Translations under genes and position numbers: made by a program | NCBI GenBank assembly: GCA_015486845.1 | Contig: WFQU01000108.1 | Span: forward strand, 1 to 32,694 | Direction: 5' to 3' | Length of the DNA stretch: 32,694 bases | From: Anaerolineae bacterium | Lineage (GTDB): Bacteria; Chloroflexota; Anaerolineae; JAADDB01 | Part shown: positions 5,517 to 23,840 of the stretch, in pieces | Layout: the number at the start of each line of letters is the position of its first letter | How positions within the stretch are numbered: the stretch's first letter is position 1 | The notes under the pieces: generated by a model | Told to the model about the DNA's origin: nothing | Database searches by the model: none | The model's input: the letters and a program-made list of their open reading frames with translations, nothing else

Positions 5517-5558
5517 AACGCAGATTAACGCAGGCTGCGCACGCAGATAAAAAACAAT
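5517..5558 (+). repeat. GCAGAT-rich dispersed repeat
   Basis: It carries an exact copy of GCTGCGCACGCAGATAAAAA at 5534-5553, preceded by AACGCAGATTAACGCAG. It sits directly upstream of the acyl-CoA synthetase start. Same family as the copies at 1998, 7850, 30883 and 32411. Confidence 0.8.
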
Positions 5559-5649
5559 GACCGATAATGATTCTAAGCTGGCCGCGGCCGCGACCGCGCC
5601 GGTGGAGAAGCCCCTATGTGCCTGCGTAGCTTCAGCCGCCCCGGACTAT

Positions 5650-5779: not shown

Positions 5780-5860
5780 TCGACTGGATAATCCCCTTTC
5801 CACAGCGCATCCACATCTCTCGTTCATCGTTACCCGGGACTGAAAGCCGTCGGGCAAATC

Positions 5861-5893
5861 AGAAGTTCAACTTCTTTGAGAAGTTGAACTTCT
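5861..5893. repeat. 33-bp double palindrome
   Basis: AGAAGTTCAACTTCT (5861-5875), loop TTG, then the exact reverse complement (5879-5893). Each 15-nt arm is itself a palindrome around its central base. It lies 21 bp beyond the stop of the aldehyde oxidoreductase gene and could fold in its 3' end. Confidence 0.9.
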
Positions 5894-5914
5894 ACAGTCA
5901 CCTTTTGACTATCA

Positions 5915-7771: not shown

Positions 7772-8323
7772 GCATCACCTCCCTGTAAATACTCGACGCG
7801 AAGCCGTTGAGGCACAGCGAAAAAATAGTCAGGACGCAGATTAACGCTGGCTGCGCACGCAGATCAAAAACAATGGTCAAAAAATTAGTAACAGATTCTC
7901 TCCTGAAAATAAACTTCTCTGGAGGGTGGCTGAGGGCATTACCCTCGGCTACCCTCTTCTCCGGAAGATAGAACGTCGATCAACACTGATGCCCTATTTC
8001 AGAAGTTCAACTTCTCGCAGAAGTTGAACTTCTAATCGACAGCGTTCTCCGCCCGAGCGCTGAAGATGCCGTCGTTGGAAAAGTGCGGCGCCTTTCCCAG
8101 CAATGGAAACCATTTCGGTGCGGCTTCAGCCATCCAAAACCAAGTATCGGCAACAGCCCGCCCGGGGCTAAAGCCGCCGGGCTACATTAAGCCCAAGCCC
8201 GCTAAAGCGGGACGAAGTTTGTTTTTCAAACTGTTCACTTTTGGCTCTGCTTTGCGTCTTAAGCCCCTTGGCGGCTTTGCGTTAGATTCGTGGATAGTGT
8301 ACAAGAATTTCGTTGGTAAAGTA
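7772..8323. repeat. Repeat-filled spacer between the AOR and ADH genes
   Basis: From left to right: a GCAGAT-rich unit (7832-7874, one mismatch to the core at 7850), a worn copy (about 7967-7990), the double palindrome (8001-8033, loop CGC), a 27-bp linker ending at 8060, and a GC-rich hairpin pair (8148-8213, with the exact 20-mer at 8157-8176). Positions 8001-8060 match 32444-32503 except in the loop. The open frame running through here on the plus strand is repeat plus antisense of the alcohol dehydrogenase gene. Confidence 0.85.
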
Positions 8324-9493
8324 CTAAAAATCCACTGGCCGGCCTTCGTACGCATAGCGGTAGAGCTTGTAGACTTCTTCTTCCTCCGGGAAACGGATGT
8401 TGATGACCAGGCTGCTATCGTTCAGTGCGTGATCAACCAGCAAATCCAATTTCGCCTCGAACTCGTCCCGGGGAATGCCTGCCTCTTGCAAATTGGTGGG
8501 CTGATCTATGCCCCGGGCCAAATCGCGCACCGCGTCGACCAAGCTGATGGTGCCGACCTCCACATCGTCCGCCGGCAAACCCAGGAAACGGGCGATTTCG
8601 GCAAAACGAGTGTGGGCATCACCCCGGAAGTTGAACTCGATGGTGTAGGGCAGGAACAGGCCAACCGCCCGGCCGTGGGGGATCGGGAAAAGCGCCCCCA
8701 GCGAATGCCCCATGGCGTGGGCCAGGGCAGCCATGGAATTGCCGAAGCCCAACCCGGCGATGGTCGCAGCGTTGTGCATTTTCTCGCGTGCCTCGGCATC
8801 GTCAGCACCGTTGAAATATGCCGAGGGCAGGTATTTGAACACCAACTCGATGGCTTTCAGGCAAAGCCCGTCGCTGAAATCGTTGGCCCATTGCGATGTG
8901 TACCCTTCGATGGCGTGGGTCAAAACGTCCATACCGGTGTCGGCGGTGATCTGCGCCGGCAAATTCCGCACGAACTGCGGATCGACGATAGCCATATCGG
9001 GGATGTTCTCCGGGTTACCTACCGAGATCTTGCGGTGCTCCGCCGTGTCGGTGAGCACAATGGGCCAAGTCGTCTCGGCGCCGGTACCGCTGGTGGTGGG
9101 GATAGCGATGAGGTGCGCTTTCTGCCGCAGGCCGAGGCTGCCGATGGGGGCGACTTCGTCCGGTGCTAAGTCCGGCCGCTCGTAAAGAATCCAAATTGAC
9201 TTGGCCGCGTCCATGGAAGAGCCGCCGCCCAGGCCGATGATCCAATCCGGTTGGTAAGAAAGTGCCAAATCCGCGCCGCACTGCACCGTTTCTAAGGATG
9301 GGTTGGGCTCGACATCGGCGAAATAGCGGCTTTCTAAGCCGGCCTGGGCTAATTTCTCCTGCACTTTGGCCACGAAACCCAAAGCGAGAATGTTGGCATC
9401 GGTGACGATGAGCGCTTTCCGCCCTTGAATCTCGGCCAAATAATCCAGGGCATCCTCGCCAAACACGATTTCCGGACTGCGGAAGAACCACAT
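8324..9493 (-). CDS. Iron-containing alcohol dehydrogenase
   Basis: A 389-residue group III (Fe-dependent) alcohol dehydrogenase interconverting alcohols and aldehydes with NAD(P)H. The nucleotide-binding motif GLGGGSSMDAAKSI lies at about residues 87-100, followed by IPTTSGTGAE (131-140). The metal ligands by family pattern are Asp189, His193, His259 and His273 (GMDVLTHAIEGY; HAMGHSLGALFPIPH), all present. The ATG at 9491-9493 is chosen over an upstream in-frame ATG because GAGGAGG lies 6 nt before it and the protein then begins at the conserved N-terminal strand. The aldehyde oxidoreductase gene follows on the same strand after a 550-bp repeat-filled gap, so the genes may be functionally linked without being one transcript. 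Confidence 0.94.
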   Translation of the reverse strand: MWFFRSPEIVFGEDALDYLAEIQGRKALIVTDANILALGFVAKVQEKLAQAGLESRYFADVEPNPSLETVQCGADLALSYQPDWIIGLGGGSSMDAAKSIWILYERPDLAPDEVAPIGSLGLRQKAHLIAIPTTSGTGAETTWPIVLTDTAEHRKISVGNPENIPDMAIVDPQFVRNLPAQITADTGMDVLTHAIEGYTSQWANDFSDGLCLKAIELVFKYLPSAYFNGADDAEAREKMHNAATIAGLGFGNSMAALAHAMGHSLGALFPIPHGRAVGLFLPYTIEFNFRGDAHTRFAEIARFLGLPADDVEVGTISLVDAVRDLARGIDQPTNLQEAGIPRDEFEAKLDLLVDHALNDSSLVINIRFPEEEEVYKLYRYAYEGRPVDF

Positions 9494-9516
9494 GATAACC
9501 TCCTCGTATAAGATAA

Positions 9517-9540
9517 CTAACGCAGAGCCACTAAGACGCA
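9517..9540 (-). repeat. CTCTGCGTTAG dispersed motif upstream of the ADH gene
   Basis: On the minus strand this reads GGCTCTGCGTTAG (9529-9517), preceded by TGCGTCTTAGT. The same 13-mer occurs, also sense-oriented, 30 bp before the glycosyltransferase start (30465-30477). A variant precedes the site-2 protease gene (25729-25740). Confidence 0.6.
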
Positions 9541-9659
9541 ATACCCCAAAACCGACTACTTACTCCCGGGCCAGCAGTCCCGGTTAAAATCGCATCTGTG
9601 AGGCTACAGCCGAACGATAACCTGCGCCGTCGCATCATTCCTCTGTTTAGCGGTTCAAT

Positions 9660-9832
9660 TCCTATAGGACTTACGCAGTTGAACGTCAAAGCCCACAAAA
9701 TATCATCGTGAGGCGGTCGAAGCGTGCCGAAGCGAACCCCCACACCGCCTTGGAGATTGCTTCGCTCCCCTATGGGGGCTCGCAATGACATTGGCCTGGC
9801 TAAACTGCGCAACGCCTATCCTAAAAGGATAG
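9660..9832. repeat. Dispersed intergenic repeats (TGCGAG/AAGCAATCTC type) and hairpin
   Basis: On the minus strand, about 9788-9750 reads as TGTCATTGCGAGC, a CCCCCATAGGGG insert and GAGCGAAGCAATCTCC. This resembles a repeat I recall from many unrelated bacterial genomes. GGACTTACGCAGTTGAA at about 9668 also resembles mobile-element end sequence, but no transposase is present. A perfect hairpin (CTATCCT, loop AAA, AGGATAG) lies at 9816-9832. No gene is supported between 9494 and 9900. Confidence 0.5.
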
Positions 9833-9900
9833 ACTGCACAGACAGACTGAAAAGGCCGGTCTGCATTATGAAAAGCTATCGAACAAACAGGCTAACGCTA

Positions 9901-10317
9901 TCAATGTGCCGGCGGAAACTCAGTGGGCACCTCAGCAGCGCAATTAACCAATTCCTGGGCCGCTTTGACGTAGCGCATGATAATAGCCATGTTGCCTTGT
10001 AGCTTGATTTTGCGCGTGACCATGCCCTTGATGGGATCGAGCTGTTTGTCGATGATCGCTTTCCAGTTAGCATCGGATGTGGACATGACAAACGCCGGCT
10101 TTTTCTCTTTTTCGTCCGCAACGACATAAGCGGCCCGGCATTTACCGTGCCAAAGGTCGATGTAATAAATTCTCTGCTCGTCGAAGAACTTTTGTGGAAC
10201 AATGACGAAATAGAAATCGCCTTCCCACTTAGCCGCCGCTTTGGCATAAGCCTCGCTTTTGTTGACAGCCTTCATAAATGCTTGCGCCCACGCATTCGAT
10301 CCGAATAGATAAGCCAT
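9901..10317 (-). CDS. SCP2 sterol-binding domain protein
   Basis: A 138-residue single-domain protein of the SCP2 family, which forms a hydrophobic tunnel binding lipids or acyl chains. The C-terminal half carries the recognisable run LDPIKGMVTRKIKLQGNMA followed by IIMRYVKAAQELV, and the N-terminal half has the mixed sheet (FYFVIVPQ, IYYIDLWHGKCRAAYVV). There is no signal peptide, so it is likely cytoplasmic. The ATG at 10315-10317 follows a perfect AAGGAGG with a 7-nt spacer, so an upstream in-frame extension is rejected. It lies 49 bp behind the membrane zinc-ribbon gene, probably in one transcript. The ligand is unknown. Confidence 0.85.
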   Translation of the reverse strand: MAYLFGSNAWAQAFMKAVNKSEAYAKAAAKWEGDFYFVIVPQKFFDEQRIYYIDLWHGKCRAAYVVADEKEKKPAFVMSTSDANWKAIIDKQLDPIKGMVTRKIKLQGNMAIIMRYVKAAQELVNCAAEVPTEFPPAH

Positions 10318-10366
10318 GAAATGCCTCCTTATATTAGCTAAACTGTGAACTGCGAGAGCCGATCGA

Positions 10367-11284
10367 CTAACGGCGCGGTGCGCCACACCGGGTACAATAA
10401 TGATCCCGCGGTCCAAACGGATGACCACATTGTCGGCAATACTTAATGCTCATGTCGAATTTCTCGACGTCTGATGTTTGTTTTTTTGTACGCTGCGGGT
10501 GGGAAAGTCGATAACGCCACATAGTATAGGCAATGAGCCCAAAGCTCATCAGCAAGGCCAGCAATATGCCCCAAAGCAAGATTATAGTACGTCCACGAGG
10601 CGGACTATAGGGCGCTATCGGTCGATTTGAGCTGCCAGTGGTCAGCGGCGTAGTCATACCCAGCAGAACCGCCGTCAAGTTCATGTCCGGCTTGTCGTAC
10701 ATAACTTTCTGTTCGATCGTTGCGCCGGCCGGCCGTGTGCCGAGCCTCCGATGGTAATAAGCCAGCTTGTACAAGCCAATGTCGGAATTGGCCATAGCCG
10801 GGCTGCCCCGCAAATTTTTAGCATGCGTCGGTTTCTGCACATTGATAGTCACCGCTTGGGCCGGATAGGGCAGCGGGCCAAAGGTGAAATCGAAGCCGTG
10901 CTGGTGGCCGGTCAACGTCATGGGCAGGTAAAACTCTATTTGCAATGCATTGCCACCGGCGCTAATAATCAGATACCGTCCATGATCACGCGCCTGTAAG
11001 TGGTATTGAGCTTGCAAAAGTCGATCATTATCGCCGCGAAAAGCCACTGTGTTGACCTTGGCGTCAGCAGGCAAAGGCAGCGTGATGGAAACAGGACCAC
11101 TGGCTTCGATTTTACTATGCAAAACGACTAACAGAGCCGAACGATCAAATTCTGGCCATAGGTCAATATCCAAAGCGGAGAAACGCATAGCAGGCCCAAC
11201 AGCAAAAGTGGGAACACGCGACAAGAGGCTGAACCACAAGAAAAACAGAATAATCAAGCTAACCACACGGTATTTTTTAGGCAC
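10367..11284 (-). CDS. Membrane protein: exported beta domain, one helix, cytoplasmic zinc ribbon
   Basis: A 305-residue protein of unknown function. Residues 1-29 look like a signal peptide or anchor (KKYR then VVSLIILFFLWFSLL). Residues 30-225 form an exported, beta-rich domain. A transmembrane helix spans about 232-254 (IILLWGILLALLMSFGLIAY), and a basic linker leads to a zinc ribbon (CRQC and CTRC; Cys283, 286, 297, 300). The topology suggests an outside sensor or scaffold domain tied to an inside metal-bound module. The start is GTG, with AAGGAG about 12 nt upstream, a long spacing. No later start keeps the signal sequence. The SCP2 gene follows after 49 bp. The extracellular domain is not recognised. 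Confidence 0.7.
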   Translation of the reverse strand: MPKKYRVVSLIILFFLWFSLLSRVPTFAVGPAMRFSALDIDLWPEFDRSALLVVLHSKIEASGPVSITLPLPADAKVNTVAFRGDNDRLLQAQYHLQARDHGRYLIISAGGNALQIEFYLPMTLTGHQHGFDFTFGPLPYPAQAVTINVQKPTHAKNLRGSPAMANSDIGLYKLAYYHRRLGTRPAGATIEQKVMYDKPDMNLTAVLLGMTTPLTTGSSNRPIAPYSPPRGRTIILLWGILLALLMSFGLIAYTMWRYRLSHPQRTKKQTSDVEKFDMSIKYCRQCGHPFGPRDHYCTRCGAPRR

Positions 11285-11390
11285 TGAATTCCACTTCTCC
11301 TTCGAGGTGGCATTTTCTATGATTGGCCTTTGGGCGAAACATCAGCATAAATTGCGACGACGCAGCTTTCCCAACAATAGGACACAAATG

Positions 11391-11460
11391 ACGCAGATAA
11401 ATGCCAACCTTTTCTGGTTTATCTGCGGGTGTCTACGTGCAATAATCTGCGTAACCAGCG
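11391..11460. repeat. Inverted repeat with GCAGAT/ATCTGCG arms
   Basis: CGCAGATAAA (11392-11401) pairs perfectly with TTTATCTGCG (11418-11427) across 16 nt. A third AATCTGCGT follows near 11454. The block lies between two minus-strand genes, 3' of the small secreted protein gene and upstream of the zinc-ribbon gene, and is related in wording to the other GCAGAT-rich repeats. No gene is seen from 11285 to 11533. Confidence 0.55.
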
Positions 11461-11533
11461 CTTGATTTGATCAGGGCTAAGCAGTTACCATAAATATATT
11501 TTAACCCCTGTCCTATAACTTTGGCCAACGTCA

Positions 11534-11980
11534 TCACCACGCGGCACGATGGAGCATTAAGGGGAAATAGCCAAAAGGCAATTTGGCCCGGTGTAAGTCT
11601 ATCCGGTCAATATGCCCACTGTGCCAGATCACTTTTTCCAGTAACGGATAGCCGCCGACAGTGAAATGGACCACCTCATTCTCGTGTGCGCCTTCCCGAC
11701 CCGGCGTCTGTGGATCATCAGCAGGAAGCGCCAGCCGGTAGACACTTTTACCACCGGCTGAGAAAACAGTGGTCTGGGCAATGGGCTCTACGTTCACGGC
11801 TGCAACGATAGTACTGCCGGGCAGCACGTTGATCTCGCCGTAGAGGTAATACGGCAAGGTGGGGGGCACTTTCTCGGCCGAAACATGGGTAGCTGCCGGC
11901 CATAGGAGCAAGACCGCCAACCAAAATGCCACACCCAAAGCCCGGCAGCTTTTTATAAACGCTTTCTTTCTTCCGTTCAT
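11534..11980 (-). CDS. Small secreted beta-sandwich protein, unknown function
   Basis: 148 residues from the ATG at 11978-11980. Residues 1-35 are a classic signal peptide: basic MNGRKKAFIK, hydrophobic LGVAFWLAVLLLW, and a likely VSA cleavage site. The mature part (YYLYGEINVLPGSTIVAAV, then YRLALPADDPQTPGREG and HFTVGG) resembles the small beta domains that accompany Chloroflexota surface proteins (a GDP.TPG.EGA style). I give no function. An in-frame ATG at 12059-12061 sits 3 nt after the stop of the giant secreted protein gene and would allow coupling, but it adds 27 residues before the signal peptide; neither start has a clear ribosome site. It is almost certainly co-transcribed with the giant gene. 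Confidence 0.7.
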   Translation of the reverse strand: MNGRKKAFIKSCRALGVAFWLAVLLLWPAATHVSAEKVPPTLPYYLYGEINVLPGSTIVAAVNVEPIAQTTVFSAGGKSVYRLALPADDPQTPGREGAHENEVVHFTVGGYPLLEKVIWHSGHIDRIDLHRAKLPFGYFPLMLHRAAW

Positions 11981-12064
11981 TGTCTTTGTATCGTGCGTCC
12001 CGGTTACATGGGCTGGGAAAGATTGAGAGACCGTGTTATCACGTACAATCTCTCTAATCATACT

Positions 12065-15000
12065 CTATTTTCGCACATCCACAAAGTGAATCCACTCATC
12101 TCCGTCGTTATTGCTGTCGATGTAGAAATCGGCGCCGCCTTGGCCCTGCGGCAAGCCGGCCACGAAACGGGCATCCGAGATAACGAAAGTTGCGATCTTC
12201 CAGGTGCGGCTGTTCTGTTTGCGCACAAAAGTCTGGCCGCCGGTTACTCGAGCGACCGCTTCATGTCCCTGGTCGTTCAAATAGTGCAGTGACCAGCTAT
12301 CATTGCCCACATCGGCATAGGTCACCCGAATCGTCACGCTGTGGTTACCGCTGAGGAATTGGCTGTCCACCTTGAAATACATGTAACGGTTGTCGTGTGC
12401 CGCATCGGTACGCCGCACCACCCAGCCTTCTGTGCCGGCGGGAATCGCCGGATTATATGGCTGGTAATTGCTGCTTAAATGATTGACCGTCCGGTCATTG
12501 GTCTCGGGAACGGTGCGGCCGCCTGGCAGCCCGTCTTCCTGATACAAGAAGAAGCTGTAATTGCCCCATTGTGGATGTTGGTGTGCCACCGGTCGATTGT
12601 CGCCCCGGCAACTGTTCGGCGTCCACGGATCGCGATGTTCCCGCAAAGCGACCCATGCGCTCGGTGCATCTTGTGGTGTGCGCCCCAAATAATTAGCAGC
12701 CCATTTGAACGCGTTGATATTGTCCCAGCGCGGGCGGGTACCACTGAAATAGAGGTCGATGCTCGGCCGTAAATAGACCGGGTGTTTATCCAGCACATTG
12801 GCCAAAGCCCACCAGAGCAATGTGCTGTTGCAAGTCATGTAATTGTACCCTTCCCAGGCCGTCGGCATTTGCCGCCAATATTGGATGGGATAATCGTACC
12901 AACTGCAATTGGGACAGCCGGAATCGCCGATATAGAGCACACCTTCACCATCTGGGTAAAGATTGTTCGTAGAAATGCCGATGCCAATATCCAAAGCGTG
13001 TTGGTTGAATTCCCGGCGTTCCCAGGCATGATAAGAAACGGGTGCGCTTTGCTGCAAGAGTGCTTTCAGGAGATGTCCGCTACCGTCACTGAACGCCGCT
13101 TTGTACCAATCGGCGATTTGATTGACCGTGTTGACCCAAACGGTAGAATTCAAGCCCGCAGCGGCCAGTGCGTTAAGCCCGGCACTATCCGTGGCCGCAC
13201 GCGTTTCACCGTAAGCCCCCGTACCGATCGCAACGAATTCGACTCGGCTATCATTTTTGTAGTGATTGCCCAGCGCGTTAATCAAAGCGTGGTAACGGCT
13301 CAGATAGCGTTCACTCCAATATTTGGGCAGAATAGCTGTGCCGCCGCCGCAACGGTATGTGACGGTGGCGCTGCGGTCGTTGCGCAGATAGTCGGGCATG
13401 GCACGGCTACCGCTGCAGCCACCTTCATAACTGGTGATGAAAAAGCTGCCTTTGCCACCTTGATTGTGCACTTTGGCTAAGAAGCTATCAATACTGTGGA
13501 AATCGTATCGTCCTTCGCTCGGCTCCAAAGTGGCCCAATGCACGGCAATCATGGATCCAGCGATGCCATAAGTGTTGCTATTGTGGCCGCTGTAATCGTA
13601 TGCCATGTAAATACCGGGCCGCTGCACCCCTTTCCAGGTAATGTGGTTACTGGGCGGTGTGGTCGGCCAGGGCGTCGGCTGCGGATTAGGCGGCGGGGGC
13701 GGGGGCAGTGTCGCGGTCGGCTGACCGGGGCGTGGCGTTGGCGTGACAGTCGGCGTCGGTGTGGCGGTTGGTCCGGTGGTTGCGGTGGGGGTCGGCGTCG
13801 GCTGGGGCTGGATCATGCCCGGCAAATAGTGTAAGCGCAAATGCGGCCGGTAAGTTGGATTCGGATAGTCGCCGGAGACAAAATGATGGCGCATGAAACG
13901 CGGCTCTTTGATGTGCAAGAGCAAACCGTGGTTGTGATTAGGATGGCTCACCCACTCCTGCACGGCGGCGGTGATGTCTAAGGTATACCAGCGATAGGGG
14001 CCGGTCAAAGTCGTCGTGGCAACGGGCATCGGCGCATAATCGGCATTACGGCCTTCTGCGCCGGGCGCAGCCCATTGCTGCCCGGCAAAAGGCCCATACC
14101 AGGTGGCTTCCGTTTGCGACCAACTGCGCAGCAGCGGCACAGCTTCCAATGTGCGTTGACCTCCACCCGCGCCGGCTCCGCTCCACAGCTTCAATTCAGC
14201 GCTGTAAATGGTCGAATCGGGCGGCAAGTAGCTCAAATCGACCCGCAAAAGCGTGTTTTCGCGCGCCCCGCTGTCATCCGGGCTAACTACCGACAGGTAA
14301 GTTGTGTTATGCGGGCGCGTTTTTTCCTCGAAACCATCTAAATAGGTATCGCTGTAACCGTGGTATCCATCCACGTTTTGCACCAATACGACCACCGTCG
14401 GCGTCGGTGGCGGCAAAGTCGGCGTGGGCGGCAACGGCGTGGGCGTGGGTTTGTAGCACTGATAAGTGATTTGAAGTTTAGGCCGCAAGCTGTCCCGGCG
14501 GTCATTGCTGCTGATAAAATGGTGGCTGACTGCCGGCTTCCCGGGCACGTTGAACGCCTGTATGATGAAACCAGGCACCTGTCTGCCAACCGCTGCCGCT
14601 GCGACAGGCTGAGAATACCAATCTTGCAGCGCTTTAGTGACATCGAAGTTAACCCAGTTGTACGTGTAATCAATCGTTTTGCTATCAAGCGGCGTAGTCA
14701 CGCGGTCCTGTGCGCCGGTAGCGCCGCTTTTCTGCCAGTTATCCTGTTTACTGGCCTGGTTGAAATTCACCTCATTCTCTTTCCAGAAGCGTTTAAGCTG
14801 ATAGACACGCAATTCAGTGGGCGCATTGTGATCGCGGGCACCCGAATAGAGGGAAAGCGTAGCCGAGATGATGTATGCGTCCGCCGGCAGCTTGTCCAAA
14901 TTGAAATTGACCAGCGCCTCTTGGGTGATGCCGAGGCGGTCCGAGCCGCGCACCACTAAATAGGTCTCTTTACCATAATTAGTATAGCCGCTGGGCCACC

Positions 15001-18000
15001 AGCGGTTGATATAGCTGTCCGCCGTGCCTTTATAACCGTTCCAATGATCATCGTTCTGCAGTGTGATCGTCGTGGGCGGTTCTAACACCGCGGTGGCCAT
15101 TGCGGTGGGGGTCGCCGTGGGCGTGACTGTTGATGTAGGTGTGACCGTGGGCGTTGGCGTCGGCAACACGGTCAACGGCGGCGTTGGGGTGGCCGTAAAG
15201 GTGGCCGTTAGTGTGGGCGTCGGCGAAAAAGTCGCGGTGGCAGTACAGGTGGGGGTCGGCGTTGCGGTAGCTTCCGGCCCTAACAAATAGTTGATGGTCA
15301 AATGCGGCCGGTAAATCGGATTCGGGTAATCGCTGGAGATGAAGTTGTGCTGCAACAAACTTTTGGCCGGCACGTGCAGCAACAAGCCATAATTGGATGC
15401 CGGATCGCGCACCCACGCTTGTACAGCATCGCGAATATCCAGATGATACCAACGGTAAGTCTCCGTGGTCAGGACCGTCGTGGCGGCCGGCATTGGTGCG
15501 TAATCCGCATTGCGGCCTTCTGCGCCGGCGACAGCCCAGCGCACGCCGCGTTGACTCTCTTCCCAGGTAGCTTCCCGTTCATCCCAACTGTGCAAAAGGG
15601 GCACAGCTACCAATGTCGCCTCGCCGCCGCTGCTGCGGCCACCGCTCCACAGGGAAAGCGTTGCCGCTTTAATAATCGCGTTGGCCGGGATGGCGCTGGT
15701 ATCCACCGACAAAAGCGCGTTATACCGGTGGCCACCATTATCCATACCGCGCACGGAAAAATAGGTTGCATCATGCGCCATCTTAGTCATCTTGATGCCA
15801 TCCAAACAGGTATCACGATAACCGTGATACCTGTTCACACCTTGCACCAGCGTCGTGACGACGGGCGTGCCGGTGATGACCGGCGTGGGCAAAGGCGTGG
15901 CCGGGATGCTGGTGGGGACAGCAGCCGTCGCCGGTGCACCTTGCTGGTAAGTGATGGCTAACTGCGGCCGCAATTGAGGATTGTGTTCGTTCTCGCTGCT
16001 GATGAAATTATGGCGCACAGCCGGCTTCCCCGGCAGGTTGAACGCCTGGATGATAACGCCGTGATTGCCGGCTGGGTCCTCGAGCCATTGCTGCACTGCG
16101 CTGGTTACATCGAACAGCACCCAATTGTGGCTGTAATCCACTGTCTGGCTGGCTATAACCTCAGGGAAACGGTCACTAACGCCCATGGCGCCCGGCGTTT
16201 CCCATTCATTTTGGACGTCAGCGCGCTGGAAAGTCACTTCGTTTCCGTTCCAGGTACGTTTCAACCGGAAAACGTCGAAACGGGTCGGGAAATTCCGGTC
16301 CCGATTACCGGAATAGACTTTGAGGAAAGCAGCTTGCACCTGTGCACCGCTTGGTAAAGCGCTCAGATCGAACTGTAGGATTCCTTCCATGGTGATGCCC
16401 CGACTATCCGGGCCGCGCACGGAAAAGAAAGTGTCGGAACCAAAGTTTTTATCGGCATTGGGCCACCAGCGGTTAAGATAGCTGTCCGTTGTGCCTTGAT
16501 AATCTCGGAACCCGTCTTGCAGGACGGTAGTTACCGGGCCGGTCACCAGTGTGGGCGTGGCGGTCGGTGTGGCCGTTGGAGTGGCCGTCGCCGTTGGGGT
16601 AGTGGTCGGCGTGGAAGTCGGCGTCCAGGTGGGTGTATTGGTGAAAACCGGGGTCGGCGTGGGCATGATAAACGTGATGACCAGCTTGGGATGCAGTTGC
16701 GGATGGCTGCGATCTTCCCGGCTAATGAAATTATGCCGGGGAGACGGATTGCCGGGGAGGTTGAATCCCTGGATGATCACGCCGTGGTTCGCAGTAGGAT
16801 CGCTCAGCCACTGGGCTACTGCTTCTGTGATATCGAAATTGATCCAGTTGTGCGCGTAGTCGACCGTTTTGCTGTCAAGGGGATGTTGAACCCGATCGGC
16901 CACGCCTAAAGCGCCGGCTTCCTGCCACCGAGTTTGGCTATCGGCGTTATTGAAAGTTGCTCCTGTTTCCCGCCACGCTTTTTTCAACTGGAAAATGTCG
17001 AAGCGCAGCGGGGCAGTGCGATCTCGATTACCGCTATAAATGGAAAGGGTCGCTTGCTGCACGCGCGCCCCGGCGGGCAATGAACTCAAATCGAAGTGCA
17101 ATAAGCCTTCCATGGTAATGCCCCGGTTATCCGGGCCGCGCACGGAGAAGAAGGCATCACTTCCAAAGTTTTGATCGGCGTGAGGCCACCAGCGATTGAT
17201 ATAGCTATCTGTCGCGCCGGCATAGCCATTTTGTCCGTCTTGCAAGATCAGTGTGACCGGCTGATCGCTGTACGGGATAGGCGTAATGGTAGGCGTCGCG
17301 GTCGGCTTAGGCGCGGTGGGCGTCGCAGTCGGCACCATCGGCGGCGGAGGCGCGTTGGTGGGCCACGGCGTGACTGCGCCATCATTATAAAACGTGACCA
17401 TGCCGTTGTGCCCGACAATCCAAATGTGCTGGTCGTCTAAAACCTCCAATCCGACAGGGGTATCTTGTCCGGGCAAAACAGTCTGGCTCCAGGTACGGCC
17501 GCCATCATTGCTCTCTAACAATCGCACGGAACGCAAGCCGGGGTTTTCGTACCAATAGTTCGGCGGAGCAGAGGATTGGGCAACTACCGCATAACCATGG
17601 TTAGCGTCTAAGAACTTAATGGCCATGACATGGAAATCGGCGGCCACGCGTGTTGTTTGCCAAGTGGCGCCACCATCCTCCGTGCGAAAAATATAGCCGT
17701 AATCGGCAGCAATCCAGCCGTGAAGCCTGTCAACGAAATCGACCCGGTGCACGGTCACGTCGGAAAGGTCGGGGCCGATCCGTTCCCAGGTCGTGCCGCC
17801 GTCCCGGCTGCGCACGAACAAACCGCCCGTCGAGACGGCCCCGATGGCAAAGCCATACCAGGTGCCGTCCGACTCGAGCCAGGAAACATCGTTGGGCGCA
17901 GCACCCCAAACAGGGCTGCCGGTGGCAGCGTGCATGCCAATTTGCCGCCAGTGTGCGCCGCCGTCCTCCGTTTTCAAAAGCGACCCGCCGTTCTGGCTGC

Positions 18001-18493
18001 ATCCGATCCAGCCGGCCCGGCCATCCGGCGCGGTGAAAACATTGAACAGCGGTTTCTGCGAGCCGGAAGCCTGAACACTATAATGCTGCCAGCCGTCCGT
18101 TGTGTAAAGAATGCGCCCTAAATCGCCTACAGCCCAGCCCACCTGGGCATCGATCATGTGCAGCCCGCGTAAAGCCCGAATCTCCGGCAGCGTCTCGGTG
18201 TACATTTGCCGCCAAGTGAAACCGCCGTCCATAGTCTTCAACAAGGAACCCCGAAAAGCACCTTCCCCATTCCAGTGGCGCACATTCGCTTCGCCCACGG
18301 CGAAACCAACCTGGTTATCGATAAACTGCACCTCTTTGAGCCAGTTTTGCCCGGGAACATGGATGCTTTGCCAACTGCTGGCCGGGGCCGCTTGGCTCGC
18401 CACCGGGGCAAATAACCAGGAAGTACCAGCAAAGATAAGCGCGAACAGCGTCATAATTGGCATGAAGAAGTAGTACATTGTCTTGCTTTTCAT
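12065..18493 (-). CDS. Giant secreted multidomain protein: beta-propeller, five DNRLRE modules, GH-like barrel
   Basis: 2142 residues. Order: signal peptide (1-36, ending ASQA); a Ycf48/BNR-type beta-propeller (about 40-375) with five clear Asp-boxes (such as LLKTMDGGFTW and IFRTEDGGATW); a Thr-Pro linker; then five DNRLRE/CBM96-like modules at about 413-609, 654-850, 878-1070, 1141-1345 and 1367-1559. Thr-Pro-rich linkers separate most of the modules. A linker leads to a TIM-barrel-like domain (1619-1960) resembling GH42/DUF4832-type glycoside hydrolases, with possible catalytic Glu1763 (GAYGETR) and Glu1881 (TAWEGYNY), and a final beta-sandwich (about 2013-2142). It is probably exported and bound to the cell surface or a polysaccharide. 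The enzyme activity is inferred and may be lost. AGGAG lies 12 nt before the ATG. A strong promoter match lies 155 bp upstream, and a small secreted protein gene follows directly. Confidence 0.88.
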   Translation of the reverse strand: MKSKTMYYFFMPIMTLFALIFAGTSWLFAPVASQAAPASSWQSIHVPGQNWLKEVQFIDNQVGFAVGEANVRHWNGEGAFRGSLLKTMDGGFTWRQMYTETLPEIRALRGLHMIDAQVGWAVGDLGRILYTTDGWQHYSVQASGSQKPLFNVFTAPDGRAGWIGCSQNGGSLLKTEDGGAHWRQIGMHAATGSPVWGAAPNDVSWLESDGTWYGFAIGAVSTGGLFVRSRDGGTTWERIGPDLSDVTVHRVDFVDRLHGWIAADYGYIFRTEDGGATWQTTRVAADFHVMAIKFLDANHGYAVVAQSSAPPNYWYENPGLRSVRLLESNDGGRTWSQTVLPGQDTPVGLEVLDDQHIWIVGHNGMVTFYNDGAVTPWPTNAPPPPMVPTATPTAPKPTATPTITPIPYSDQPVTLILQDGQNGYAGATDSYINRWWPHADQNFGSDAFFSVRGPDNRGITMEGLLHFDLSSLPAGARVQQATLSIYSGNRDRTAPLRFDIFQLKKAWRETGATFNNADSQTRWQEAGALGVADRVQHPLDSKTVDYAHNWINFDITEAVAQWLSDPTANHGVIIQGFNLPGNPSPRHNFISREDRSHPQLHPKLVITFIMPTPTPVFTNTPTWTPTSTPTTTPTATATPTATPTATPTLVTGPVTTVLQDGFRDYQGTTDSYLNRWWPNADKNFGSDTFFSVRGPDSRGITMEGILQFDLSALPSGAQVQAAFLKVYSGNRDRNFPTRFDVFRLKRTWNGNEVTFQRADVQNEWETPGAMGVSDRFPEVIASQTVDYSHNWVLFDVTSAVQQWLEDPAGNHGVIIQAFNLPGKPAVRHNFISSENEHNPQLRPQLAITYQQGAPATAAVPTSIPATPLPTPVITGTPVVTTLVQGVNRYHGYRDTCLDGIKMTKMAHDATYFSVRGMDNGGHRYNALLSVDTSAIPANAIIKAATLSLWSGGRSSGGEATLVAVPLLHSWDEREATWEESQRGVRWAVAGAEGRNADYAPMPAATTVLTTETYRWYHLDIRDAVQAWVRDPASNYGLLLHVPAKSLLQHNFISSDYPNPIYRPHLTINYLLGPEATATPTPTCTATATFSPTPTLTATFTATPTPPLTVLPTPTPTVTPTSTVTPTATPTAMATAVLEPPTTITLQNDDHWNGYKGTADSYINRWWPSGYTNYGKETYLVVRGSDRLGITQEALVNFNLDKLPADAYIISATLSLYSGARDHNAPTELRVYQLKRFWKENEVNFNQASKQDNWQKSGATGAQDRVTTPLDSKTIDYTYNWVNFDVTKALQDWYSQPVAAAAVGRQVPGFIIQAFNVPGKPAVSHHFISSNDRRDSLRPKLQITYQCYKPTPTPLPPTPTLPPPTPTVVVLVQNVDGYHGYSDTYLDGFEEKTRPHNTTYLSVVSPDDSGARENTLLRVDLSYLPPDSTIYSAELKLWSGAGAGGGQRTLEAVPLLRSWSQTEATWYGPFAGQQWAAPGAEGRNADYAPMPVATTTLTGPYRWYTLDITAAVQEWVSHPNHNHGLLLHIKEPRFMRHHFVSGDYPNPTYRPHLRLHYLPGMIQPQPTPTPTATTGPTATPTPTVTPTPRPGQPTATLPPPPPPNPQPTPWPTTPPSNHITWKGVQRPGIYMAYDYSGHNSNTYGIAGSMIAVHWATLEPSEGRYDFHSIDSFLAKVHNQGGKGSFFITSYEGGCSGSRAMPDYLRNDRSATVTYRCGGGTAILPKYWSERYLSRYHALINALGNHYKNDSRVEFVAIGTGAYGETRAATDSAGLNALAAAGLNSTVWVNTVNQIADWYKAAFSDGSGHLLKALLQQSAPVSYHAWERREFNQHALDIGIGISTNNLYPDGEGVLYIGDSGCPNCSWYDYPIQYWRQMPTAWEGYNYMTCNSTLLWWALANVLDKHPVYLRPSIDLYFSGTRPRWDNINAFKWAANYLGRTPQDAPSAWVALREHRDPWTPNSCRGDNRPVAHQHPQWGNYSFFLYQEDGLPGGRTVPETNDRTVNHLSSNYQPYNPAIPAGTEGWVVRRTDAAHDNRYMYFKVDSQFLSGNHSVTIRVTYADVGNDSWSLHYLNDQGHEAVARVTGGQTFVRKQNSRTWKIATFVISDARFVAGLPQGQGGADFYIDSNNDGDEWIHFVDVRK
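13817..17257 (-). repeat. Intragenic array of five DNRLRE-encoding repeats, order A-A-B-A-B
   Basis: Each unit is about 580-615 bp: 17257-16667 (A1), 16534-15944 (A2), 15862-15284 (B1), 15073-14459 (A3) and 14395-13817 (B2). A units share TDSYINRWWP- and SVRGPD-type text and end in ITYQ-like strands. B units share a TYLDG-like start, AEGRNADYAPMP and YPNPTYRPHL. The DNA of A1 and A2 is still visibly alike over long runs, pointing to duplication within the gene. The linkers are GC-rich runs of ACC/CCG-type codons. Confidence 0.85.
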
Positions 18494-18647
18494 GTCTGTC
18501 CCAATCTCCTAACCCGGACAAGTCAGAACTAAAAATACTCAAACGCCAAGCCACCAAGGTGCAAAGATTTCTTAATACCCTCGTCGGAGCCCCAGGGCAC
18601 GTTTTTCGGCTAAATGAACATCGCCAGCTTACATTTCCACAAGCTTA

Positions 18648-18676
18648 ATAATAGCGGATAAGATTTATTCGGTCAA
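18648..18676 (-). promoter_or_regulatory. Sigma70-like promoter for the giant secreted protein gene
   Basis: On the minus strand, TTGACC (18676-18671), a 17-nt spacer and TATTAT (18653-18648), each one mismatch from consensus. The implied start is near 18641, giving a 5' leader of about 150 nt. This leader contains a degenerate AACGCCAAGCCACCAAGGTG repeat (about 18541-18560). Confidence 0.6.
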
Positions 18677-19065
18677 TATGACTTTTTTACTATGGTTTCA
18701 TCTAAGTAGCACGTCCTTCTCGACCACGTGTACAACGGCACAAAGAGCATAAAACAGAGCACAAAGCAGTTACTGAGCCGAATGCTTATTATTACAGAGG
18801 CGCGATTTGCCAAAAGTATGCCTCCTTTGTTATACTGGGAACTAATAAGATTGTGTAGCACTATTAGGTGCTATAGAGTCGGCTGGCCTGTGTTCGGCAG
18901 TTGAAGCTATATCGACCCTTGCGAAGTCGCCCCCCCCACCAACAACACGAAATCGGACCTGCGAAGGTCAATTTCGCAAAGGTTGCCGCAAATTCATCCA
19001 CCAGGCACAGACTACAATGCTACAATTTTTACAAACATACAATGCTATGGTTGGGCCTGGTTGAA
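18677..19065. other. Divergent intergenic region with candidate gcv promoter
   Basis: No credible gene. The stretch 18905-18990 (CGACCCTTGCGAAGTCGCC, then GGACCTGCGAAGGTCAA) looks like a worn dispersed repeat related in wording to 28349-28415. A 10-bp direct repeat, TACAATGCTA, lies at 19013-19022 and 19038-19047. TGCTACAAT at 19018-19026 could be an extended -10 for the glycine operon, but no good -35 accompanies it. Confidence 0.4.
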
Positions 19066-19251
19066 CAACACGAGAGAGTATTGCTGATGGTGGTGATCGC
19101 CGAAGGGGCACGCCGGATCGGTAGGCCGTACTGGTTTGGCTAATCTCTCAGGCAAAGAAGATCGTGTTGGGACAGGACTCTGGAGAGCTGTCATGGAGAC
19201 ACGCCGACGGGGAAAAGTTACCGGATTGGTAACTAAACTCTCAGGCCAGAG
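19066..19251 (+). ncRNA. Tandem glycine riboswitch
   Basis: Two consecutive glycine aptamers precede gcvT. In the first, P1 pairs CAACACGA (19066-19073) with TCGTGTTG (19162-19169) around CGCCGAAGGGGCA and CTCTCAGGCAAAG. In the second, CTCTGG (19178-19183) pairs with CCAGAG (19246-19251) around CGCCGACGGGGAAA and CTCTCAGGCC. These are the family's conserved core words. A terminator follows at 19263-19292. By family precedent, glycine binding favours read-through, turning on the cleavage genes when glycine is plentiful. Confidence 0.93.
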
Positions 19252-19262
19252 GACAGAGTGAA

Positions 19263-19292
19263 GGCGGTCGCATAGGCGCGAGCGTCTTTTTT
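19263..19292 (+). terminator. Rho-independent terminator, riboswitch expression platform
   Basis: GGCGGTCGC (19263-19271), loop ATAGGC, GCGAGCGTC (19278-19286). The 9-bp stem has one G-T wobble and one G-G mismatch and is followed at once by six T residues. It lies 12 nt after the second aptamer and 18 nt before the gcvT start, the right place for glycine-controlled transcription termination. Confidence 0.75.
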
Positions 19293-19310
19293 ATTGCCAA
19301 GGAGGTCAAG

Positions 19311-20423
19311 ATGGAATTGAAGCGGACGAAGTTGTACGACACACACGTAGCACTAAGTGGACGCATGGTGGAATTTGCCGGCTGGGAGCTGCCGGTGCAG
19401 TATCCCACTGGGCCAACCGTCGAACATGAGGCCGTCCGTACCGCCGCCGGCCTGTTCGACATCGATCACATGGGGCAATTCATGGTGATTGGGGAAGAAG
19501 CAACGCCATTCCTCAACCACATGGTCACCTGGGATGTGAGCAACATGAAAGATGGCGAAGCACACTATTCATTGCTTTGCTATGAAGATGGCGGCATTGT
19601 GGATGATATTTTCATTTATCGGCGCGGCGATGGCTACATGGTCGTCGTCAATGCTTCCAACCGAGACAAAGATTTCAAATGGTTCAGTCTGCACACTGGC
19701 GGGTATAACGTGACGGTAACAGACGTTTCCGACGAGACTTACATGTTAGCACTGCAAGGACCCAAAGCGGAAACTGTCCTGAATAAACTGTTGCCCAACC
19801 ATGATGCAGCGACCATGGCTTTCCACACTAGCCGCTCCACCTCATTGAACGGCATTCCCACGTTAATTGGCCGCACTGGCTATACCGGCGAGGACGGCTT
19901 CGAGCTTTTCTTCTCGGCAGATGAAGCCGTGCGCATGTGGAACATGCTTCTGGAAGCCGGCAAAGAGGACGGGTTAATTCCTTGCGGATTAGCAGCCCGG
20001 GATTCGTTGCGCTTCGAACCCTGCCTGCCTCTCTACGGCGATGAAATCTTTTCCGAAATAGATCCCATCAGCGCCAGATTAGGTTTCTTTGTCAGTTTCG
20101 AGAAAGATTTTATAGCCAAAAATGCATTGTTGAAAATCAAGTTGGAGGGGCCCACACAGAAATTGATCGGCTTCGAGATGGTTGAGCGGGGCGTGCCGCG
20201 GCACGGCTACGCGATTCTATCGCCGGCCGGCGAGAAAATCGGTTTCGTGACCACCGGCATGAAAGCACCCACCGCGGGTAAATTCGTCGGCTTAGGTTAT
20301 GTGCAATCCAGTTACACGAAATACGGCACAGAAATTGCCATTGAAATCCGCGGCAAAGCGAAAAAAGCCGTGGTGCGCAAACGACCTTTTTACATTCCAG
20401 CATATCGTCGTGCCAAGAAATGA
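19311..20423 (+). CDS. gcvT: Aminomethyltransferase, glycine cleavage T protein
   Basis: 370 residues. The T protein transfers the methylene group from aminomethyl-lipoyl-H protein to tetrahydrofolate and releases ammonia. Family landmarks are LYDTHVALSGRMVEFAGWELPVQY at the N-terminus, the GGIVDDIFIYR segment with the folate-reacting Asp98/99 pair, LQGPKA, GRTGYTGEDGFEL and a C-terminal VTTGMKAPTAGKFVGLGYV. The length is standard. The ATG follows a perfect AAGGAGGT. It is the first gene of the operon, directly under the glycine riboswitch. A 198-bp gap before gcvH holds a small inverted repeat (TTATCCT/AGGATAA, 20535-20575). Confidence 0.97.
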   Translation: MELKRTKLYDTHVALSGRMVEFAGWELPVQYPTGPTVEHEAVRTAAGLFDIDHMGQFMVIGEEATPFLNHMVTWDVSNMKDGEAHYSLLCYEDGGIVDDIFIYRRGDGYMVVVNASNRDKDFKWFSLHTGGYNVTVTDVSDETYMLALQGPKAETVLNKLLPNHDAATMAFHTSRSTSLNGIPTLIGRTGYTGEDGFELFFSADEAVRMWNMLLEAGKEDGLIPCGLAARDSLRFEPCLPLYGDEIFSEIDPISARLGFFVSFEKDFIAKNALLKIKLEGPTQKLIGFEMVERGVPRHGYAILSPAGEKIGFVTTGMKAPTAGKFVGLGYVQSSYTKYGTEIAIEIRGKAKKAVVRKRPFYIPAYRRAKK

Positions 20424-20621
20424 CCTTGCCGAGGGAAAACGTAACCACTCAGCCCAGCGACTTAGCGTCACAGCAACATCTGCAAAATCGCCATGCAGCG
20501 CTTGGCAGGCAGGCTGCGTAGTTATCTGATTTCTTTATCCTGAATCCGTGCAATCGGTGCCAAAAAATAGGATAATCATCGTAGTTAAAGAAAACATTTT
20601 TGCGTAAAGGAGAAAAAAGAG

Positions 20622-21017
20622 ATGGCAAATTACAAATTTGATGCCAAGGCGAAGTACTTGGATACCCATGAGTGGGTACGTATCGAAGATGGCGTGGCGG
20701 TGATGGGCGTGAGCGATGTGGCGCAGGACCAATTGTCCGATGTAGTCTATGTCGATTTGCCGGCGGAAGGCGATAGTTTCAAACAGAAAGACACCATCGC
20801 TGTGGTGGAATCGGTCAAATCGGCGGAGGACGTTTTCGCTCCTATCAGCGGCAAAGTCATTGCCGCCAATGAAGCGTTGGAAGGAAGCCCTGAACTAGTC
20901 AACCAGGATCCATACGGCGCCGGGTGGTTCTTGAAAATGGAGCCGGCCGACCTGAGCGAACTGGATAACTTAATGGATGCGGAGGCGTACGAGAAATTCG
21001 TTGCCGAGGAGGTCTAA
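20622..21017 (+). CDS. gcvH: Glycine cleavage H protein (lipoyl carrier)
   Basis: 131 residues. The H protein carries the aminomethyl intermediate on a lipoyl arm between the P, T and L proteins. The lipoyl-lysine is Lys66 in VVESVKSAEDVFAPISG. The N-terminal YLDTHEWVRIEDGVAVMGVSD and the C-terminal GAGWFLKMEPAD are typical, as is the length. AAAGGAG lies 9 nt before the ATG. The stop is one base from the gcvPA start, so the two are tightly coupled. Confidence 0.97.
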   Translation: MANYKFDAKAKYLDTHEWVRIEDGVAVMGVSDVAQDQLSDVVYVDLPAEGDSFKQKDTIAVVESVKSAEDVFAPISGKVIAANEALEGSPELVNQDPYGAGWFLKMEPADLSELDNLMDAEAYEKFVAEEV

Positions 21018-21018
21018 G

Positions 21019-22383
21019 ATGGACTACGTTCCCAACACTGACGCGCAACGCGCCGAAATGTTGGCCACCATCGGCATCAAGGATATTAGCGAACTTTTCC
21101 AGGTCGTGCCTGAAAAAGCCCGTTATCCGCAACTGAATTTGCCACCGGCACTTTCGGAAGCGGAAATGATGGCAGAGCTTCGGGCCATGAGCGAGGAGAA
21201 TGCCGATTTAGAGCATTACACCTCTTTCTTAGGTGCCGGTGCTTATAATCACTTTATTCCTGCGGTGGTGGACTTCGTTCTCAGCCGTTCCGAGTTTTAC
21301 ACAGCCTATACGCCATACCAAGCAGAAATTTCACAGGGATGGCTGCAAGCCATCCACGAATATCAAAGCATGGTGCGTGCCCTGACCGGCATGGAGGTAG
21401 CCAACGCGTCCCATTACGACGGCGCAACGGCCACCGCCGAGGCTGTAATCATGGCACTAAATGTGACACGTCACAAAAAGCGCAAAGTGCTCCTTTCTCC
21501 GACTTTGCACCCGCAATATCGTCAAGTTGTGCGCACTTACACCCAAGGTGACCAGGTGGAAGTCATCGATGATGTTGCTTCTTGCTTTGATCTACCAGAT
21601 ATCAAAGCTCAAATCGACGATCAGACAGCTATTTTGGTGTGGCAGAACCCAGACTTTTTGGGGCACCTCTACAGTCCGGCAGAAATGCGTGCCTTAGCTG
21701 ACGCCGCCCACGCCCATGGCGCTCTTTTTGCCGTGGCCGCAGATCCAGTGTCGTTGGGCTTGTTCACACCGCCCGGCGCTTACGATGCCGATATCGTCAC
21801 AGCAGAAGGACAGGCCGCCGGCAACGCCATCAGCTTCGGCGGACCGTATTTAGGTATCTTCGCTTTCAAGAAGAAATACGTGCATAAGAGCTCCGGCCGC
21901 ATTGTCGGCGCCACCGAGGATGCTCAAGGCCGCAGGGGTTATGTATTGACGCTGAGCGGTCGCGAACAACACATTCGCCGGGAGCGAGCCAGTTCCAATA
22001 TTTGCTCCAACCAGGCGCTCAACGCGTTGGCCACAGCGGTCTATTTGGCAGCCATGGGCAAGCGCGGATTGCGCCGGGTCGCCGAGCTGTCCTATCAAAA
22101 AGCGCATTATGCGGCCAAAGTGTTAGCTGAACGGCCCGGCGTAGAGATCGCCACCCCGGATCCGTTCTTCTTAGAATTCGCTGTGCGCCTGCCCAAACCG
22201 GCTGCACAATTGAACCGTTTCCTCTGGGAAGAGTGGGGCATGATCGGCGGGTACGATTTAGAGCCGGAGTATCCCCAGCTCGGCCATGCTATGTTGCTCA
22301 GTTTCACCGAACTAACAGAACGAGGCGAAATCGATGAATTAGTGGATGCTGTGGACGAATTTCTCAGCGGGGAGCGTGGATGA
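21019..22383 (+). CDS. gcvPA: Glycine dehydrogenase (decarboxylating) subunit 1
   Basis: 454 residues. This is the alpha-like subunit of the two-subunit P protein, which with GcvPB decarboxylates glycine and loads the aminomethyl group onto H protein. It shows the family segment FLGAGAYNHFIPAVVDFV, then YTPYQAEISQGWLQAIHEYQ and ASHYDGATATAEA. It lacks the PLP lysine, as expected, since that sits in subunit 2. The ATG follows GAGGAGGT that overlaps the gcvH stop region; an upstream in-frame start would run into gcvH and is rejected. Its TGA overlaps the gcvPB ATG. Confidence 0.96.
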   Translation: MDYVPNTDAQRAEMLATIGIKDISELFQVVPEKARYPQLNLPPALSEAEMMAELRAMSEENADLEHYTSFLGAGAYNHFIPAVVDFVLSRSEFYTAYTPYQAEISQGWLQAIHEYQSMVRALTGMEVANASHYDGATATAEAVIMALNVTRHKKRKVLLSPTLHPQYRQVVRTYTQGDQVEVIDDVASCFDLPDIKAQIDDQTAILVWQNPDFLGHLYSPAEMRALADAAHAHGALFAVAADPVSLGLFTPPGAYDADIVTAEGQAAGNAISFGGPYLGIFAFKKKYVHKSSGRIVGATEDAQGRRGYVLTLSGREQHIRRERASSNICSNQALNALATAVYLAAMGKRGLRRVAELSYQKAHYAAKVLAERPGVEIATPDPFFLEFAVRLPKPAAQLNRFLWEEWGMIGGYDLEPEYPQLGHAMLLSFTELTERGEIDELVDAVDEFLSGERG

Positions 22384-23840
22384 TGACATTAGATTATGCC
22401 AACAGCTACATTTACGATCTATCGGAGCCGGGGCGTATAGGTGTGAGTCTGCCGCCAACGGACGTGCCGGAAAGCGATCTACCGCAAGGGTATTTGCGCA
22501 CAACGTTACCGTTGCCAGAGGTAGCGGAGGTGGAATTGGTACGCCATTACGTCCGCCTTTCACAAAAGAATTATTCGGTAGACAGCGGTTTTTACCCGTT
22601 AGGTTCTTGCACCATGAAATACAACCCCAAGGTGAACGACCAGGCTGCGCATTTGATCGGCTTCGCCCGCATTCACCCGTTGCAACCGGAAGAAACAGTC
22701 CAGGGCGCAATGGCGTTGATGTATGGTTTACAGCAAGCGTTAGCAGAAATCAGCGGGTTCGATGCTATTTCATTGCAGCCTTCGGCCGGCGCACATGGTG
22801 AATTCAGCGGCGTGCTCATCATGCGCAAATACCAGTTAGACCGGGGCGAGACGCAGCGGAATAAGATCATCGTTCCAGACTCCGCCCACGGCACGAATCC
22901 CGCTTCGACAGCTATGTCCGGGTTGAAAGCAGTCACCGTACCCAGCGACGACCGCGGCAATGTGGATTTGGAAGCGTTGCGAGCAGCGCTGGACGACACA
23001 GTAGTCGGCATGATGCTGACCAACCCCAATACGGTGGGCCTGTTCGACGAGCACGTAACAGAGATCTGCGATTTGGTGCACAGCGTCGGCGGCCTGATGT
23101 ACGGCGACGGGGCTAACCTCAATGCGGTGATGGGCATCGCTAAAATGGCCGATTTGGGCTTCGACGTGATGCACTTCAATTTGCACAAAACATTCAGCAC
23201 GCCGCACGGCGGCGGTGGTCCCGGTTCCGGACCAGTGGGTGTGACCAAAGCGTTAGAACCGTTTTTACCGGGGCCGATCGTGGGCCGCGAAGAAACGGAG
23301 GAGGTCGAATACCATTGGGTCTGGCCGGCCAAAAGCATCGGACGGGTCAAGTCTTTCTTCGGTAATTTCGGCGTGCTGGTGCGCGCGTATACCTACATCA
23401 GCATGTTAGGCGCCGAAGGTCTATTGCGCACCGCCGAAAACGCTGTGCTCAACGCTAACTATATTCAAGCACGGCTAAAAAATGTCTACCCGGTACCATT
23501 CGGGGACCGTTTCTGCATGCACGAATTCGTAGCGTCAGGGTTGCTACCTGGCACGAAAGACTTGCACACGCTGGACATCGCCAAGCGGCTCATTGACTAC
23601 GGATTCCACCCGCCGACGATCTATTTCCCGGGCATCGTGCACGAGTCTATTATGATCGAGCCGACGGAAACGGAAAGCAAAGCGACATTGGACGCGTTCA
23701 GCGAAGCAATGATTAAAATCGCGCAGGAAGCCAAAGAAAATCCGGAATTGTTGCACAGCGCACCGCACAAAGCGCCAGTGGGACGATTAGATGAAGTCTT
23801 GGCTGCGCGCAGGTTGGAACTAACTTCACTGCCGAAGTAG
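22380..23840 (+). CDS. gcvPB: Glycine dehydrogenase (decarboxylating) subunit 2
   Basis: 486 residues, the PLP-binding subunit of the split P protein. The Schiff-base lysine is Lys270 in FNLHKTFSTPHGGGGPGSG, and the conserved GSCTMKYNPK lies at 75-84. The first ATG overlaps the gcvPA stop (ATGA); a second ATG is three bases later. The split form is the usual one in Chloroflexota, Firmicutes and archaea. The operon closes with a strong terminator at 23860. The L protein (lipoamide dehydrogenase) and lipoate enzymes are not in the window. Confidence 0.97.
   Translation: MMTLDYANSYIYDLSEPGRIGVSLPPTDVPESDLPQGYLRTTLPLPEVAEVELVRHYVRLSQKNYSVDSGFYPLGSCTMKYNPKVNDQAAHLIGFARIHPLQPEETVQGAMALMYGLQQALAEISGFDAISLQPSAGAHGEFSGVLIMRKYQLDRGETQRNKIIVPDSAHGTNPASTAMSGLKAVTVPSDDRGNVDLEALRAALDDTVVGMMLTNPNTVGLFDEHVTEICDLVHSVGGLMYGDGANLNAVMGIAKMADLGFDVMHFNLHKTFSTPHGGGGPGSGPVGVTKALEPFLPGPIVGREETEEVEYHWVWPAKSIGRVKSFFGNFGVLVRAYTYISMLGAEGLLRTAENAVLNANYIQARLKNVYPVPFGDRFCMHEFVASGLLPGTKDLHTLDIAKRLIDYGFHPPTIYFPGIVHESIMIEPTETESKATLDAFSEAMIKIAQEAKENPELLHSAPHKAPVGRLDEVLAARRLELTSLPK

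Follow-up and report, generated by a model that had tools for sequence, protein, structure and literature searches.

Anaerolineae are widespread bacteria that are hard to grow and are thought to live on polymers. Giant multimodular proteins with a glycosidase-like domain are an already known kind. The modular enzyme EngU began as a partial match to glycoside hydrolase (GH) family 42 and founded family GH148 (PMC5725463), and the founder of carbohydrate-binding module (CBM) family 96 binds alginate within a giant alginate lyase, by way of a Lys/Arg groove whose residues are known (PMC9971899). Here we describe a gene on contig WFQU01000108.1 of an Anaerolineae bacterium (the window, the whole stretch analysed, is 32,694 nucleotides long) whose product, P0001, combines a Ycf48/BNR-like propeller, five DNRLRE/CBM96 modules, and a C-terminal glycosidase-like barrel with a jelly-roll domain. 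We predict, with a probability of roughly two in three, that P0001 is an exported multimodular carbohydrate-active enzyme with a catalytic barrel that uses the pair Glu1763/Glu1881; the family to which this barrel belongs appears to be uncharacterised.

An overview of the gene and its modules is given in Table 1. The reading frame is single and uninterrupted, on the minus strand, and encodes 2142 residues, as expected from the original prediction of one giant polypeptide, to which the strand is now added. It is not a chance frame, because orthologs of 1666 and 1737 residues with the same order of propeller, DNRLRE modules and barrel occur in other genomes, and further support comes from a barrel with 83% identity in a third genome (locus L050). 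The protein begins with a signal-peptide-like segment and is predicted to be exported, and Thr/Pro-rich linkers lie between its modules.

Table 1. Features of the giant gene and the adjoining reading frame, in window coordinates.
Feature	Residues	Position	Strand	Basis or remark
Whole gene (P0001)	1-2142	12065..18493	minus	ATG at 18493, stop ends at 12065
Signal-peptide-like N-terminus	1-35	18389..18493	minus	Read by eye: basic start, hydrophobic core, Ala-rich end
Ycf48/BNR-like propeller, six Asp-box-like motifs	36-380	17354..18388	minus	Pfam and NCBIfam matches
DNRLRE/CBM96 module A1	414-612	16658..17254	minus	Domain match and identity comparison
DNRLRE/CBM96 module A2	653-855	15929..16537	minus	Domain match and identity comparison
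DNRLRE/CBM96 module B1	876-1072	15278..15868	minus	Domain match and identity comparison
DNRLRE/CBM96 module A3	1142-1350	14444..15070	minus	Domain match and identity comparison
DNRLRE/CBM96 module B2	1365-1561	13811..14401	minus	Domain match and identity comparison
Glycosidase-like barrel	1624-1999	12497..13624	minus	Profile searches, profile-profile alignment, fold match of AlphaFold2 model
Glu1763 codon; proposed catalytic residue, following strand 4	1763	13205..13207	minus	Invariant 48/48
Glu1881 codon; proposed catalytic residue, on strand 7	1881	12851..12853	minus	Invariant 48/48
C-terminal jelly-roll, CBM35/CBM22-like fold	2022-2142	12068..12430	minus	AlphaFold2 model and fold match
Open reading frame of 175 aa, secreted-looking, signal-peptide-like internal start		11534..12061	minus	Start lies 3 bases beyond the giant gene's stop codon; association by position only

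The C-terminal barrel and its glutamate pair

The C-terminal unit of about 520 residues is predicted to consist of a glycosidase-like barrel of the (beta/alpha)8 type followed by the jelly-roll. It contains 49 acidic residues, only three of which (E1763, E1881 and D2122) are identical in all 48 homologs compared, whose mean column identity is 27%. The third, D2122, belongs to the C-terminal domain, which leaves the barrel with just two invariant acidic residues, Glu1763 and Glu1881. Strand counting on an AlphaFold2 (AF2) model, in which strand 7 is of low confidence, assigns these two carboxylates to strands 4 and 7. The strand-4 motif is YGE, with both the Gly and the Glu invariant (48/48). 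Both glutamates align with conserved glutamates in DUF4832-type and in single-domain barrels (hhalign 98.4–99.9%), the second with PTAWE placed onto PLAVE, PIFFE and PMSGE, and Glu1763 further aligns, free of gaps, with the Glu of the GH14 beta-amylase motif (IGTGxYGETR onto VGMGPAGELR). The original prediction had named these two residues, numbered correctly in the translated frame, as a candidate pair, and their position as the sole invariant acidic residues of the barrel, matched by glutamates in distant barrels, strengthens that proposal.

The barrel resembles several described families in part. Pfam reports a GH42 match (PF02449) in P0001 at E 2.5e-5, confined to residues 1651–1756 and to profile positions 32–134 of 376, and finds little in the 48 family members beyond a partial match of this sort, in 27 of them. 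A profile of the 48 sequences retrieves GH42, GH35 and GH14 structures from the PDB at E 4e-5 to 1e-3, by way of its first 100–150 residues; PDB searches with the single P0001 sequence gave no relevant match, and those with a DUF4832 alignment none at all. For single-domain barrels hhalign gives the barrel profile a probability of 99.9%, and for DUF4832-type proteins 99.1 and 98.4%; GH42 reaches 96.1%, in an alignment of just 100 columns that ends before the active site. The DUF4832 model itself (PF16116) has no match in P0001 up to E 1, in the 48 members at E 0.1, or in the genome that carries P0001, and the GH14 model (PF01373) has none in P0001 at E 1 and one among the 48 members, at E 0.028. 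NCBIfam offers no model for the barrel unit in these 48 sequences beyond trace GH35 matches. Membership in GH42 was rejected, as the match covers half a domain and the Asn-Glu motif is missing. By these comparisons the family is distinct, being not GH42, and related to DUF4832 without belonging to it; judged against Pfam and NCBIfam, it appears uncharacterised and is probably a new GH-like family, although it may already carry a CAZy number. The comparison with GH42 and DUF4832 that had been proposed is thus apt for DUF4832 (hhalign 98–99%), but for GH42 it holds over the first half of the barrel only.

AF2 models, built from six sequences, have a predicted local distance difference test score (pLDDT) of 47.8 and a predicted template modelling score (pTM) of 0.36 for residues 1610–2142, and of 54.4 and 0.59 for the barrel alone. 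The better-modelled half of the barrel matches the GH42 structure 5xb7 (Z 12.8, 3.9 Å over 184 residues) and the GH14 structure 1vep (Z 11.7, 3.9 Å over 206 residues). This is the first half; the second has pLDDT below 50, and the predicted glycosidase-like barrel accordingly stands over the better-modelled half, with sequence and fold signals of the GH42/GH35/GH14 kind. At Z 8.5 the C-terminal domain matches jelly-rolls of the CBM35/CBM22 type and Eph receptor domains equally well, such that a jelly-roll fold is likely from the model, with no ligand implied.

The propeller and the DNRLRE array

The propeller matches the Pfam model for PSII_BNR/Ycf48 at E 7e-14, in agreement with the earlier assignment, and scores far below the curated cut-off of the Ycf48 model NF010237 (61.7 versus 326 bits); we regard it as Ycf48-like, not as Ycf48. 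The array is matched in five stretches by both CBM96 (PF24517; E 1.4e-60, 204 bits against a cut-off of 26) and the NCBIfam DNRLRE model (NF033679; E 1.3e-116, 386 bits against a cut-off of 34). Amino acid identities of 49–62% among the A modules, 55% between the B modules and 29–35% between the types confirm the five modules, their two types and the order A-A-B-A-B. When 51 DNRLRE modules are placed in a tree, those from P0001 and its orthologs form one group; the array has therefore expanded by duplications inside this gene lineage, as had been suspected from the sequence. The ortholog at L050 has the last A and B modules in common with P0001, and two others (L051 and L052) have three DNRLRE modules each. 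PDB searches with the modules returned TGF-beta propeptides only, matches that are already known for the DNRLRE fold. Glycan binding by the modules is what their sequence family would predict, and alginate must not be assumed as the ligand here because that family is broad.

Distribution and module order of the barrel family

The genome that carries P0001 has five copies of the C-terminal unit, and its relatives in the same taxonomic family have 11–15 match places each, some of which are pieces of one gene. Searched with the profile of the 48 copies, 199 sampled Anaerolineae genomes yield 56 with matches at E <1e-20, often with several copies; across a broader set of genomes from the phylum, full-length matches are confined to a few. 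A 608-residue protein of a Pseudanabaena plasmid (L141:1831-3657) aligns over the whole barrel and jelly-roll unit (hhalign 99.9%). No relative was found in the viral contigs or in the phage records searched.

Almost every homolog places the barrel first, ahead of DNRLRE, CBM9 or SdrD_B modules, and the accessory modules recognised across the family are of binding or spacer types (CBM96/DNRLRE, CBM9, SdrD_B). The order of propeller, DNRLRE array and barrel is peculiar to the P0001 clade, which comprises six rows with full support in a quick tree; in one of its members, L059, the barrel is followed by CBM9 and SdrD_B. The original description of the combination as unusual therefore needs narrowing: it is the presence of a propeller and the inverted arrangement of the modules that set P0001 apart, whereas the pairing of such a barrel with a DNRLRE array is common in Anaerolineae.

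Some departures from the usual architecture were also seen. Two barrel copies (L073:5422-7536 and 9310-11457) have about 150 extra residues inside the barrel, with no Pfam match, recalling the CBM4 insertion in EngU. The C-terminal jelly-roll of the family also precedes right-handed beta-helix proteins, with weak Beta_helix matches (L007:1171-3225 and L010:1171-3189). Contig 1 of G427, a single-contig genome that is 77% complete, has several barrel copies with in-frame stops, reflecting decay or sequencing error.

Gene neighbourhoods

One paralog in the same genome as P0001, on contig 82, lies beside genes for a sugar epimerase, a PMT-type transferase, a Wzx-type flippase and glycosyltransferases. 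A clear exopolysaccharide-type cluster occurs at one of the five barrel loci of this genome, which is not enough for a rule, and an exopolysaccharide context as the rule there was rejected. Elsewhere, four copies (L156, L150, L146 and L155) have exopolysaccharide-type genes nearby, an ortholog (L149) has a UDP-glucose dehydrogenase gene nearby, and the Pseudanabaena plasmid homolog sits between Wzy and glycosyltransferases; these neighbourhoods hint at exopolysaccharide. The cluster in L156 also encodes, between barrel-family proteins, a protein with cohesin, DNRLRE and SdrD_B domains (7857-19853), such that a cohesin-based complex in Anaerolineae is possible, and in L155 a 1529-residue protein with BTAD, nSTAND NTPase and WD40 propeller domains (9055-13641) adjoins a barrel-family gene.

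In the window, the 175-residue product encoded directly downstream of the giant gene has no Pfam match, and its candidacy as a free form of the N-terminal domain of L059 was not supported (1.5 bits). Genes for an aldehyde ferredoxin oxidoreductase, an Fe-alcohol dehydrogenase and an ADP-forming-type acyl-CoA ligase are close together at 3362–9541 (minus strand), which suggests an aldehyde/alcohol fermentation module and says little about the giant protein. An ordinary glycine riboswitch aptamer (Rfam RF00504; 19170–19266, plus strand) is located upstream of gcvT, gcvH and both gcvP subunits (19311–23840).

Proposed function and alternatives

In the mechanism that we favor, the barrel would be a glycosidase-like catalytic domain with Glu1763, at the end of strand 4, and Glu1881, on strand 7, as its catalytic carboxylates. 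The five DNRLRE/CBM96-type modules in front of the barrel and the jelly-roll behind it would hold a polysaccharide chain, the N-terminal propeller would be a docking or scaffold part, the Thr/Pro-rich linkers would space the modules, and the barrel would cut or transfer the held polymer. Action would be outside the cell, probably on a polysaccharide and possibly on an exopolysaccharide. The sequence and fold signals of the barrel and its invariant glutamates support, as a predicted function, the polysaccharide-binding or -cutting machine originally proposed. Several observations weigh against it. The Asn-Glu acid/base motif of GH42 and clan GH-A at strand 4, as given in PMC5725463, is missing in the barrel family (48 sequences); the AF2 models are weak, with pLDDT below 50 in the E1881 region; no exopolysaccharide gene adjoins the giant gene, from which about 11 kb separate the closest glycosyltransferase in the window; and the exopolysaccharide link is seen at some loci only, in uncorrected counts of neighbors.

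With a dead barrel, P0001 would be an adhesin or scaffold that binds glycans only, through its DNRLRE array, jelly-roll and propeller, the barrel being a non-catalytic binding platform. The many binding-type modules and the module-rich and linker-rich surface architecture fit this, and Pfam and NCBIfam detect no activity motif of a characterised family; however, a dead barrel would not need glutamates at strands 4 and 7 that are invariant in 48 of 48 sequences at 27% mean identity and conserved in distant barrels too, and we consider it improbable. A diverged GH42-type beta-galactosidase is far less credible still, in that the PF02449 match, although above cut-off over 105 residues, leaves the rest of the domain unmatched, the Asn-Glu motif is absent, and hhalign stops short of the active site. 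It is also conceivable, if somewhat unlikely, that the barrel serves exopolysaccharide assembly, and trims, transfers or releases the cell's own polymer during synthesis or export rather than acting on foreign polysaccharide. The glycosyltransferase, Wzx/Wzy and sugar-nucleotide genes found next to some homologs point this way, as does the DUF4832 gene that is contiguous with Pel clusters (PMC7112168), but three of the five copies in the genome, and the window gene itself, are without such neighbors, and the neighbor counts are uncorrected. Such an assembly factor is a sub-case of the carbohydrate-active enzyme that we favor and does not exclude it.

A bolder possibility, somewhat less likely than not, is that the barrel and jelly-roll form a glycoside hydrolase family that has so far gone unrecognised. 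It would have expanded in Anaerolineae, would stand between barrels of the GH42/GH35 and GH14 kinds, with DUF4832 branching off at a distance, and would consist of enzymes that process exopolysaccharides; in the P0001 clade the enzyme would have been remodelled by placing a propeller and a self-duplicating CBM96 array ahead of it. A barrel family found in more than one in four sampled Anaerolineae genomes, frequently as multiple copies, with no end-to-end Pfam or NCBIfam model, would be a large unassigned part of the carbohydrate-active toolkit of these bacteria. The invariant glutamate pair makes the catalytic hypothesis directly testable by two point mutants, and would also supply a working hypothesis for DUF4832 proteins.

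Comparison with known systems

The barrel shares with GH42 its first half, including the W-x-x-hEP-x-x-G-x-Y-D-F motif, and the fold match to 5xb7, but lacks the Asn-Glu motif, has an unmatched second half and ends in a different C-terminal domain. With DUF4832 it shares both candidate glutamates (YGxWGE; PIFFE or PMSGE), although P0001 has no PF16116 match and differs in its C-terminal domain and modules. The likeness to GH14 beta-amylase lies in GxGPAGELR, which aligns gap-free with IGTGxYGETR, and in the fold match to 1vep; however, the alignment spans only about 130 residues at E 1e-4, and the glutamates are 118 residues apart compared to 194 in the soybean enzyme (Glu186/Glu380, title of 1v3h). 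EngU of GH148 is a direct precedent for a partial GH42 match in a modular protein that proved to mark a new family (PMC5725463), but has the clan-A motifs INNEN and VTEYN in place of YGE and P-x-x-W/F-E-x-Y, a distinction drawn from motifs. All five DNRLRE modules are far above both the CBM96 and the DNRLRE cut-offs. The Asp-box propeller is related to the photosystem II assembly factor Ycf48, and differs from it in being fused to unrelated modules within a giant protein.

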